Assembly: GCA_018242665.1 (NCBI GenBank)
Contig: JAFEBL010000036.1
Span: forward strand, 1 to 64,000
Source: Nitrospira sp.
GTDB taxonomy: Bacteria; Nitrospirota; Nitrospiria; Nitrospirales; Nitrospiraceae
Length of the DNA: 64,000 nucleotides
Direction of reading: 5' to 3'
Both the position numbers and the translations under genes were made by a program. Below the pieces are notes generated by a model. It was not told the DNA's origin, searched no databases, and was given only the letters and a program-made list of their open reading frames with translations. This document shows, one piece after another, positions 2-4,003 of the stretch (its first letter is position 1; each line of letters begins with the position of its first letter).

Positions 2-2017
2 AAGATCGTGGGTAGCCATGTCTACGCGGCGAAGATGCACGATAAGCGATTTAAGCAGATGGAGGCCGGCCTTCCAGAAGAATATCACGACGAGAAGGAG
101 CTCGACCGCCAGCGCCAGATTCACGATTCGCTGATCACCCGCGGCCTTCAGATCATCACGGATTCCTACCTCGACTACGTCGATAAGAAATGTAACGAAG
201 CCAACCTGCCGGTAGAACGTCGCTCGCTGGAAGGACGCAACTGGAAAGTGCTGGCTGAGGATATCAATACCAACGCCTACGACCTCGTGATCATGGGCGC
301 CTTGGGAGTCGGAGCCGTCAAAGACAGCGTCATCGGCAGCAATACCGAACGAGTCCTGCGTCGCGTGCGTAACTCCGACATGCTGATCATCAAGCAGCCG
401 ACACCCGTCGGGACGGGGAAGATCGTCGTTGCGGTCGACGGCAGCCCCTATTCTTTCGGCGGGCTCATGACCGGTTTGGCACTCGGCAAAGCTTTTAATG
501 TCCCGGTTGAAGTCATTTCCGCGTTCGACCCGTACTTCCACTACGCCGCGTTTCACAGCATCTCCGGCGTCCTCAATGAAGAAGCCGGCAAGGTCTTCCG
601 CTTCAAAGAGCAGGAAAAGTTGCATGAGGAAGTGATCGACAGCGGTCTGGCCAAGATCTACCAGTCACACCTCGATATTTCCCGCGAAATCGCTCAAGCC
701 GAACAGACCGATGTGAAAACGACTCTGCTGGACGGCAAGGCCTTCGAAAAAATCATTCAATACGTGCGAAAAGAGAATCCTTGGCTGCTCATCGTGGGCC
801 GAATCGGCGTCCACAGCGACGAAGATATGGACATCGGCAGCAACACGGAAAACCTGCTCCGATCTGCAACGTGCAATATCCTGGTTTCCAACCGCAAATA
901 TGTGCCGCCAATCGATACCCAGGCGGAATATACGATTGCCTGGACGGAAGAAGCCTTGCGCCGGATGGAGCGCATCCCGGTGTTTGCCCGCGGAGTCGCC
1001 AAAACAGCCATTCACCGCTACGCCATCGAAAAGGGACATACGATCATCAGCAACACGGTCGTGGACTCCGCCGTCGGCCATATCCTGCCGAAGGGCGCGA
1101 TGGACGCCATGCGGGCACTGGGCGGGAACCTGGATGCGGCCGGCATTGATCGCGACAAGATGCAAGCTGACGACTCCGTTGCACAGGATCTGATGGGTTC
1201 CACGCTGAGCGGCATGATGACCCAGGTCGTGGAAGAAAAACCGGTTCATAGCCCCGGCACACAGGCCTATCTGGACCGCATGAGCCAAAACTATTTTGTC
1301 TGTGACGGGTGCGGCTACGTCGGCAAAGGCGATACCCCTGTCAAATGCCCCGTGTGCAGCGCTGACGGCGATCGTTTCAAGCAGGTCGACAAGTCGATCT
1401 TCGAAGCGGCAGCCAAAGCGGAGGGCGGCCTTGAGACCGACGTCGCCTATGACGACATTCCGATGCAGTGGACCAAAGACGCCAAAGAAGCCATTCGAGC
1501 GGTACCGGCTGGATTCCAGCGCCGCCGGGCCAAAGCCAAGATCGAAAAGAGTGCTCGCAAGCTCGGCATGACGACGATCACCCTCGAATACGCCAACCCT
1601 ATGATTCAAGAAGCGGCCTCCGAGGATTACACGCCAATCTTTGCGAACAAGGGAAGCGGAACCGCAGCCCAACCTTCGGCCGACCTGCCGACCACCAATG
1701 GCACCGCAGCGAATACGGAGAACGGAACTGGCACTGAACCGACTCAGGCCTCCCAAGAACCGGCATCGCCCTATACCTGGACTCCTGATGCACAGGGCCG
1801 GTTAGATCGGGCGCCGGAAGGATTTATGCGGGAGTGCACGAAGGCGTTGATCGAGAAACACGCCGACAAGATCGGCACGACGGTCATCACGCTTGAAGTG
1901 GCCACCGAAGGGATTGAGCAAGCCAAGGGGTACATGGCCGATGCCATGAAAACCGGCAATCTGAAGGACATGATTGCCAACCTGACCGGCTCCTCCAAGA
2001 CCGGGGCGAACCGGTGA
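2..2017 (+). CDS. Universal stress protein fused to rubredoxin-like and PCP-reductase-like domains (5' end outside window)
   Basis: The reading frame is open to the first bases of the window, so the N-terminus is missing; 671 residues are visible. Two UspA-type domains occupy roughly residues 1-300, each with the ATP-binding pattern ending in IGSNTE (GALGVGAVKDSVIGSNTE in the first). After them come a PCP_red-like segment (starting YTIAWTEEAL), a rubredoxin-like zinc/iron knuckle with two CxxC pairs (CDGCG and CPVC), and two further PCP_red-like segments (MQWTKDAKEAI and YTWTPDAQGRL). PCP_red is the small domain found at the C-terminus of light-independent protochlorophyllide reductase subunit B. 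Nothing else here suggests photosynthesis, so a redox or tetrapyrrole-related stress function is inference. The stop codon overlaps the next gene's start (TGATG), indicating translational coupling with the radical SAM gene, which carries the same domain. Confidence 0.85.
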   Translation, partial: KIVGSHVYAAKMHDKRFKQMEAGLPEEYHDEKELDRQRQIHDSLITRGLQIITDSYLDYVDKKCNEANLPVERRSLEGRNWKVLAEDINTNAYDLVIMGALGVGAVKDSVIGSNTERVLRRVRNSDMLIIKQPTPVGTGKIVVAVDGSPYSFGGLMTGLALGKAFNVPVEVISAFDPYFHYAAFHSISGVLNEEAGKVFRFKEQEKLHEEVIDSGLAKIYQSHLDISREIAQAEQTDVKTTLLDGKAFEKIIQYVRKENPWLLIVGRIGVHSDEDMDIGSNTENLLRSATCNILVSNRKYVPPIDTQAEYTIAWTEEALRRMERIPVFARGVAKTAIHRYAIEKGHTIISNTVVDSAVGHILPKGAMDAMRALGGNLDAAGIDRDKMQADDSVAQDLMGSTLSGMMTQVVEEKPVHSPGTQAYLDRMSQNYFVCDGCGYVGKGDTPVKCPVCSADGDRFKQVDKSIFEAAAKAEGGLETDVAYDDIPMQWTKDAKEAIRAVPAGFQRRRAKAKIEKSARKLGMTTITLEYANPMIQEAASEDYTPIFANKGSGTAAQPSADLPTTNGTAANTENGTGTEPTQASQEPASPYTWTPDAQGRLDRAPEGFMRECTKALIEKHADKIGTTVITLEVATEGIEQAKGYMADAMKTGNLKDMIANLTGSSKTGANR

Positions 2018-3420
2018 TGGGAAAGTCGTTGCCGGTTCTCAATATCCCCTTTCTTGGAGACAAGCTGGAGTCACTTCAGCAACAGATCTCGAAGTTCATC
2101 TCTCCGACGTCGCCGGCGGCAACGCCGAATGATGGCCGGACGGTCGATGACTTCAAGCCCTACCTCGTCGCCCTGAACCTGACCAAGCGGTGCAACCTCA
2201 AGTGCGACCATTGTTATCTCGACGCCACCACGAAAGCCGGCGGCGGATCGGATGAACTCAGCACAGAAGAATGCTTCCGCCTTATCGATCAGATTGCCGA
2301 GGTGAACAAGGGCTGCCTGCTGGTCATCACCGGCGGCGAGCCGCTCGTGCGACCTGACATTTTGGACATTGCCCGCCATGCCGTCGGACTCGGCTTTATC
2401 GTCGTGTTCGGGACCAATGGCATGCTGATCAATGATCGCATGGCGAAGACGCTGGTTGAAATCGGCGTGATGGGCGTCGGTATCAGCATTGATTCGCTCA
2501 ATCCTGACAAGCACGACCACTTTCGCGGAGTGCCGGGCGCCTTTGCCAGCGCACTGGCCGGTATTGAGGCCTGCAAGCGCAATGGCCTGCAGTTCCAAGT
2601 ACATTTCAGTGCCCAGCCCATGAATTATCAAGAGCTGCCCGCAGTGGTGGAATGGGCCCATACGCTGGGCGCGCGAGTCTTAAACGTCTTTTTCATGGTC
2701 TGTACCGGCCGCGGTGAAGAACTGACGGACATCACACCCCAACAGTACGAGGAAGTGCTGGGATATCTGGTCGAATGCCAGGATCAATACAAGGATATGT
2801 TGGTGCGAGCACGGTGCGCGCCCCATTTCAAACGCCTCGCCTATGAGAAGGATCCCAATTCTCCGCTCACCAAGGCGACGGGATACATGGGCGGCGGCTG
2901 CTTGGCTGGAACCAATTATGCTCGTGTCACGCCGAACGGCGAACTGACACCCTGCCCCTATATGCCGCTGTCTGCCGGCAATGTTCGGGAAACGAGTTTT
3001 GCTGATTTGTGGGAACGGTCGGATGTATTCAATTCCTTCCGATATCCTCAACTCAAAGGCAAATGCGGGGACTGCGAATACACGGATATCTGTGGCGGCT
3101 GTCGTGCTCGTCCCTATGTCGACCACGGTGACTGGCTGGATGAGGACCAGTGGTGCCTCTACACGCCCAAAGGTGGGGAGAAAATTAAAGTCGCCTTCAA
3201 TACGCCGGAAGAATCTGCGGTTGCGTGGGATGAAGCATCAGAGCTGCGGCTGAGCCGGATTCCTTACTTCCTCCGCGCCATGGTCAAGAAGGGTGTGGAG
3301 CGACATGCTCGGGAAAATGGCATCGCCCTCATCACCATTGAGCTCATGGAAGAACTTCGCAAGAAGCGGTTCGGCAACGACGCCCCCGTCTTCAATTTTG
3401 ACATGAGAGGGAAAGAGTAA
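2017..3420 (+). CDS. Radical SAM/SPASM protein with C-terminal PCP_red domain (haem-maturation-like family)
   Basis: This 467-residue protein has the radical SAM cluster motif CNLKCDHCY with cysteines 59, 63 and 66. It has a SPASM-type C-terminal cysteine array (CLAGTN, CPY, CGDCEYTDICGGC, WCLY), as in NirJ/AhbD-like enzymes that modify haem or peptides. The last 60 residues (from AVAWDEASEL) form a PCP_red-like domain, also found three times in the upstream coupled gene. The ATG at 2017 overlaps the previous stop by one base; a GTG three bases earlier is an alternative start. Family knowledge supports iron-sulfur radical chemistry, but the substrate is unknown. The shared accessory domain and overlap suggest that the two proteins work together. 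Confidence 0.85.
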   Translation: MGKSLPVLNIPFLGDKLESLQQQISKFISPTSPAATPNDGRTVDDFKPYLVALNLTKRCNLKCDHCYLDATTKAGGGSDELSTEECFRLIDQIAEVNKGCLLVITGGEPLVRPDILDIARHAVGLGFIVVFGTNGMLINDRMAKTLVEIGVMGVGISIDSLNPDKHDHFRGVPGAFASALAGIEACKRNGLQFQVHFSAQPMNYQELPAVVEWAHTLGARVLNVFFMVCTGRGEELTDITPQQYEEVLGYLVECQDQYKDMLVRARCAPHFKRLAYEKDPNSPLTKATGYMGGGCLAGTNYARVTPNGELTPCPYMPLSAGNVRETSFADLWERSDVFNSFRYPQLKGKCGDCEYTDICGGCRARPYVDHGDWLDEDQWCLYTPKGGEKIKVAFNTPEESAVAWDEASELRLSRIPYFLRAMVKKGVERHARENGIALITIELMEELRKKRFGNDAPVFNFDMRGKE

Positions 3421-3487: not shown

Positions 3488-4003
3488 ATGGATTCCGTAC
3501 AAAGCATCTTCCTTGACCTGAACCAACTCATTCCCATCGTCAATCATTGGTTTCATTTGCTGTCTGCGGTCATCTGGATCGGCGGGCTGGCATTTCTCGT
3601 GATGGCCGTCACCCCAGGGCTTCGCGAAGGGGGCCTTCCCAAAGAATACATCCGCCCGATCACCGACGCGTTCTACCGGCACTACAAGCGTGTGGCAGGC
3701 ATTCTCCTGGTTGTCCTCCTGTTCACCGGTGGCATCAACCTCCATTACGTCAATCAGATCTTCGTCTCCCAGACCGGGCAAGGGTTGCAGAACCACCCGA
3801 AATATCTGTGGATCTTCTGCATCAAGTTGATCCTCGTCCTCTGCCTCCTAACCCTGTTCCTCTATACCGTCATCTTTCAATCGGACGAAGACGAGGAAGA
3901 GGAAGGTGAAACCTACGAATCGATCCCCTTTCAACGCGCCGCGCTCTGGATGGGTTTCTTTATTATCCTCTGCGCCGCTGCCATGAAACACTTGCATCAG
4001 TAG
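3488..4003 (+). CDS. CopD-like integral membrane protein
   Basis: This 171-residue protein has four predicted transmembrane helices: around NHWFHLLSAVIWIGGLAFLV, VAGILLVVLLFTGGINL, YLWIFCIKLILVLCLLTLF and LWMGFFIILCAAAM. The first helix has a conserved His and the HLLSAVIWIGG pattern typical of CopD and related cytochrome-b-like membrane proteins. A strongly acidic cytoplasmic or periplasmic loop (DEDEEEEGE) precedes the last helix. It lies 67 bases after the radical SAM gene on the same strand and may belong to that unit. CopD proteins are linked to copper or haem handling, but substrate assignment here is only an inference. Confidence 0.7.
   Translation: MDSVQSIFLDLNQLIPIVNHWFHLLSAVIWIGGLAFLVMAVTPGLREGGLPKEYIRPITDAFYRHYKRVAGILLVVLLFTGGINLHYVNQIFVSQTGQGLQNHPKYLWIFCIKLILVLCLLTLFLYTVIFQSDEDEEEEGETYESIPFQRAALWMGFFIILCAAAMKHLHQ

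Follow-up and report, generated by a model that had tools for sequence, protein, structure and literature searches.

PCP_red domains on a universal stress protein and a coupled radical SAM/SPASM protein in Nitrospira: a candidate module for tetrapyrrole modification

Four PCP_red domains in two coupled genes

The window, that is, the whole stretch of 64,000 nucleotides that we analyzed, opens a contig (C36) from a Nitrospira genome; N. moscoviensis (L064) and Ca. N. defluvii (L017) are among its close relatives. As can be seen in Table 1, its first gene encodes a protein in which two universal stress protein (Usp) domains are followed by three PCP_red domains, with a rubredoxin-like knuckle after the first of these. 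The product of the second gene is a radical SAM/SPASM protein that has a fourth PCP_red domain at its end. PF00582 matches two stretches of the first protein, both with the ATP-binding motif. Since the uncut homologue in N. defluvii is 703 aa long (L017:5893-8004), the first Usp domain in the window is short by about 32 residues. For the radical SAM gene, the sequence favors an ATG at 2017 as the likely start over a GTG at 2014.

Table 1. Features of the module at the start of the window
Feature	Positions	Strand	Remarks
Usp-Usp-PCP_red-rubredoxin knuckle-PCP_red-PCP_red protein	2..2017	+	5' end cut by contig start
ATP-binding motif G-2x-G-9x-GS, Usp domain 1	296..340	+	
ATP-binding motif G-2x-G-9x-GS, Usp domain 2	797..841	+	
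PCP_red domain 1	941..1072	+	52.5 bits; nearest solved structures are BchB chains
Rubredoxin-like knuckle CDGC...CPVC	1301..1357	+	RUBY_RBDX 25.8 bits
PCP_red domain 2	1469..1588	+	42.2 bits
PCP_red domain 3	1778..1903	+	37.1 bits
TGATG stop/start overlap, Usp gene / radical SAM gene	2015..2019	+	sequence
Radical SAM/SPASM/PCP_red protein (NirJ2/AhbD-like)	2014..3420	+	likely start ATG 2017
Radical SAM cluster motif CNLKCDHC	2191..2214	+	
CAPH motif, common to AhbD and NirJ2	2815..2826	+	
SPASM region, seven cysteines	2896..3156	+	
PCP_red domain 4, three helices	3226..3360	+	56.5 bits; domain model pLDDT 91
Hydrophobic CopD-like protein, 171 aa, conserved downstream partner	3488..4003	+	

PCP_red is a small domain known chiefly from the synthesis of chlorophyll. 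All four copies score above the curated cut-off of Pfam PF08369 (37-57 bits against 32.5 bits), with whole-protein E-values of 7e-33 and 6e-14 for the two proteins. The original prediction that three such domains and a knuckle are fused to a double Usp protein, and that a fourth ends the radical SAM/SPASM protein of the coupled gene, is confirmed, with the correction that the first gene is cut at its 5' end. A predicted model of the domain (pLDDT 91) matches 2KRU, the BchB PCP_red domain as solved by NMR (Z 9.1, rmsd 1.6), 2L09 (Z 7.6), and chain D of 2YNM (Z 6.4, rmsd 1.4), and the modeled fold is thus that of solved PCP_red domains. Likenesses to AAA+ lids and histone folds (Foldseek, VIA) were ascribed to a common small helical arrangement. 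There is no conserved Cys or His in PCP_red, which makes it unlikely that the domain itself ligates haem axially. A literature search on PCP_red returned nothing relevant.

The knuckle consists of two CxxC pairs (1301-1312 and 1346-1357). Its RUBY_RBDX score lies just below the cut-off of 26.5 bits, while a relative reaches 55 bits, and the four cysteines are kept in Nitrospira and in relatives of families f4 and f16.

The window's own genome holds 12 PCP_red copies in four loci, eight of them in the three loci besides that in the window (L001:904-1659, L004:1462-2457, and L005:1465-1959), and none of the 12 is carried by a BchB-like protein. Two of these other proteins are Cys-rich, have two PCP_red domains each, and adjoin an Mrp/ApbC-like ATPase and a DUF420 protein; a four-copy PCP_red protein, on contig C5, adjoins an SppA-like protease.

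The radical SAM protein sits with AhbD and NirJ2

The NCBIfam models that match the radical SAM protein best are NirJ2 (TIGR04055, 322 bits) and AhbD (TIGR04545, 317 bits), both short of their cut-off of 500, and these two also come first in each of the five further clade members that were scanned. The protein displays the AhbD-type CxxxCxxC, CAPH, and eight-Cys auxiliary pattern. Among the groups compared, CAPH (or CAPQ) together with the eight-Cys pattern occurs only in the PCP_red clade, AhbD, and NirJ2, and is missing from NirJ, AhbC, and TIGR04053. In a tree built from 48 radical SAM sequences, the 29-member clade with PCP_red groups with AhbD, NirJ2, and TIGR04053, split from AhbC, NirJ, and NirJ1 with 100/100 support. 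Its nearest branch is Paenibacillus NirJ2 (91/80), which is a single long branch, and support for the monophyly of the PCP_red clade is modest (80/54). There are 11 columns that are conserved in both the PCP_red clade and AhbD and yet differ between them, and at eight of these NirJ2 sides with the PCP_red clade. By these sequence criteria, the protein belongs among the tetrapyrrole radical SAM enzymes, on the side of AhbD and NirJ2. The full-length AlphaFold model (pLDDT 53) was too poor to reveal an active site.

One genome (G006) carries PCP_red on a separate AhbD-like protein (489 bits on the AhbD model vs a cut-off of 500; PCP_red 37.4 vs 32.5 bits), and the domain has thus been fused to such an enzyme a second time. 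A search of the window's own genome with the window protein found no second relative, and a search for an NirJ1/AhbC-like partner found none there either, the single match to the AhbC/NirJ1-type model scoring at the level of the radical SAM protein itself.

Most SPASM enzymes have peptide substrates, and the original prediction had left the choice between tetrapyrrole and peptide modification open. The protein could accordingly be a maturase acting on a neighbor (the Usp, CopD-like, or cl1 protein), with PCP_red as a recognition domain, and several partner proteins in the same genome do carry PCP_red. Yet the best peptide-maturase models reach at most about 152 bits, half the score of the tetrapyrrole models, and the nearest relatives act on tetrapyrroles. 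We consider a maturase unlikely, noting that short conserved precursors were considered only from 90 aa up, which makes the test a weak one. While we found no supporting evidence for the peptide half of the prediction, its tetrapyrrole half is strengthened by the phylogeny, the CAPH/eight-Cys pattern, the PCP_red fusion to an AhbD-like protein, and the HemY linkage described below.

The Usp/radical SAM pair is conserved across Nitrospirota

Our survey covered Nitrospirota. The best 80 loci of one contig scan are all Nitrospira-like; all neighbor counts are raw tallies, set against no genome-wide random baseline. Among these 80, the Usp gene lies upstream of the radical SAM gene in 67 of the 67 loci with enough flank, and the CopD-like gene comes next in 74 of 75. 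The CopD-like partner also accompanies the pair in relatives of families f2 to f5, as a weak match in f3 to f5. Farther out, Usp adjoins the radical SAM gene in 29 of the 32 divergent Nitrospirota loci with flank, spread over at least 14 families; in four families (f26, f27, f31, and f37) PCP_red is missing from the Usp partner, while the radical SAM protein retains its own. In f5 and f8 the next gene encodes the four-copy PCP_red protein, which in f18 forms a fusion with the radical SAM protein; on this pattern it is part of the same system. Members of a protein family about 220-255 aa long also adjoin the radical SAM gene at six loci (L161:6173-6826, L164:6051-6785, L166:7888-8649, L171:7560-8291, L172:5964-6638, and L246:6951-7718); a Pfam scan of two of them gave no match.

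Within Nitrospira, the neighbors of the module are quinone-related genes and the CopD-like gene, joined in the window by a gene for a di-haem cytochrome c peroxidase-like protein. Nitrospira makes methyl-plastoquinones (PMC12324825), and the operon might serve their synthesis, the radical SAM enzyme hydroxylating or methylating the quinone ring: MpqE (414 bits vs a cut-off of 335) is encoded just upstream in 54 of 57 Nitrospira loci, and a B12-binding radical SAM protein in 52 of 57. Across the phylum, however, this association breaks down. In f12, f16, f26, f36, and others, genomes with the PCP_red radical SAM protein lack MpqE, MpqE occurs without it in f11, f19, and several f18 genomes, and in f2 MpqE lies away from the pair. 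We therefore rejected a methyl-plastoquinone operon on co-occurrence and regard such a role as quite improbable. The B12-binding protein, whose gene is flanked by those for MpqE and Usp in most Nitrospira loci, is of the Slr0320 family (L017:4072-5727; 446 bits, cut-off 775) and is a candidate for an extra ring methyltransferase in methyl-plastoquinone synthesis.

Linkage to haem genes and coexistence with four haem b routes

A search for haem synthesis genes next to the module in Nitrospira itself found none. In family f18, the one family in which this linkage was seen, a HemY gene directly follows the radical SAM gene in all three genomes with the module (G008, G049, and G054, from two genera), after a gap of 1 to 175 bp; the HemY proteins score 291, 304, and 305 bits vs a cut-off of 97.85. 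Since G008 has a complete hemE-hemN-hemH-hemY cluster elsewhere, its module-side HemY is a second copy. Moreover, a cytochrome bd-like subunit is encoded beside or near the pair in f18 (G049), f26, f27, f31, and f36, usually with a cytochrome c; that of G049 was recognized by BLAST to the other copies only, with no Pfam match in the part scanned. In two f26 genomes (G243 and G237), the pair adjoins a cytochrome d1-domain cluster and an NirJ-like protein. The linkage to haem genes in relatives that had been proposed as a check is thus found in three genomes, and neither a lack of PCP_red matches nor a neighborhood unrelated in all other genomes was observed.

The enzyme could simply have the function of AhbD, haem b synthase, acting as an oxygen-independent coproheme decarboxylase for low oxygen beside ChdC. 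There is a precedent in Haloferax, which uses ChdC with oxygen and AhbD anaerobically (PMC5746218), and Nitrospira has HemY and a ChdC-like protein and neither HemN nor HemF above cut-off; the score of 317 bits on the AhbD model and the HemY neighbor in f18 fit as well. That score is nevertheless far under the cut-off, and the 11 otherwise conserved columns are unlike AhbD, with NirJ2-like residues at eight. The module also coexists with at least four haem b routes: ChdC-like proteins in f1, f2, and f8 (identified by PF06778 alone, which also covers chlorite dismutase), HemF in f3, f4, and f6, HemN in f18, and AhbD-like proteins next to HemH in f26 and f36. An enzyme kept alongside four different routes is unlikely to be a housekeeping haem b synthase, and the module does not fill a last step for which other coproporphyrin(ogen) decarboxylases are lacking, ChdC-like, HemF, HemN, or AhbD proteins being present in the different families. 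We hence judge the AhbD function, for low oxygen included, to be unlikely.

PF00762 (ferrochelatase) was not found in the window's own genome. A siroheme route deduced from the missing ferrochelatase is unsupported, PF00762 being present in 14 of the 14 other genomes of the genus that were searched and AhbC being absent. At one locus of the window's own genome (G000:C12, L226) there is no ferrochelatase between HemE and HemY, where a congener (L230) has one. The f2 genomes searched (L227 and L228), complete ones included, have HemE, HemY, and a ChdC-like protein and no ferrochelatase. At three further loci (L188, L191, and L236), an AhbD-like protein without PCP_red adjoins HemE and HemH, and in the first two also HemY; judging from this gene order, the coproporphyrin route is apparently finished by AhbD in some Nitrospirota.

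Discussion

We lean, with confidence a little better than even, toward the reading that the Usp-linked radical SAM module modifies a dedicated haem-type tetrapyrrole for high-potential respiration, and does not provide the general supply of haem b. This reading builds on the identity of the domains, the placement of the enzyme in its clade, the conserved pairing, the links to HemY and haem proteins, and coexistence with four haem b routes, from which we infer a substrate, a reaction, a role for PCP_red, and control by ATP and stress. The substrate of the radical SAM/SPASM enzyme would be a haem-type or haem-precursor tetrapyrrole. By abstracting a hydrogen from one of its peripheral side chains, the enzyme would oxidize or remove that chain, as by AhbD and NirJ, whose target is the propionate side chains of tetrapyrroles (PMC10548856; PMC7242693). 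The product would be destined for bd-like oxidases, cytochromes c, and cytochrome d1-type proteins. The PCP_red domains on the enzyme, the Usp partner, and the four-copy protein may serve for mutual docking or for holding the tetrapyrrole, while the Usp domains would bind ATP and govern activity or assembly, with the rubredoxin-like knuckle as a possible carrier of electrons. Control by stress, part of the original prediction, is suggested solely by the Usp domains and by CRP-type neighbors in some relatives.

The chemistry would probably be performed on a haem-type pigment in a way not yet described. A bolder version, speculative and unlikely in our estimate, is that the product of the module is a modified haem of a kind not yet described, made for the bd-like terminal oxidases and related high-potential respiratory proteins of Nitrospirota. 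PCP_red would then be a tetrapyrrole handler used on several proteins, and some lineages would have a second HemY for this purpose alone. In soils, water works, and sewage plants, Nitrospira oxidizes nitrite and performs complete nitrification, relying for respiration on haem proteins of unusual kinds. An enzyme that is conserved, is encoded next to HemY or bd-like oxidases in relatives, and differs from every known haem b synthase would point to a missing tetrapyrrole step and, if true, would give PCP_red a role outside chlorophyll synthesis.

How does the module compare with known systems? With BchB/ChlB of dark-operative protochlorophyllide reductase and with the stand-alone PCP_red proteins (2KRU, 2L09), it has PCP_red in common by sequence and predicted fold. 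Unlike in BchB/ChlB, no nitrogenase-like domain lies ahead of PCP_red; the domains in that place are solely of the Usp or radical SAM/SPASM type, and PCP_red is carried by other enzymes. The Usp protein has two Usp domains with the ATP-binding motifs of universal stress proteins but, unlike these, it combines them with a rubredoxin-like knuckle and three PCP_red domains, and its gene is coupled to that of a radical SAM protein. With AhbD (TIGR04545), the radical SAM protein shares the radical SAM core, CAPH, the eight-Cys pattern, and a CRAR motif. In contrast, six of seven AhbD proteins examined are without a PCP_red domain, and AhbD has HemE, HemH, and HemY as neighbors, scores far higher on its own model, and differs at the 11 conserved columns. 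NirJ2 (TIGR04055), the putative haem d1 radical SAM protein of Gram-positives, is the nearest tree branch and has the same residue at eight of these columns, but it lacks PCP_red and is paired in Paenibacillus with NirJ1 and an AsnC-family gene.
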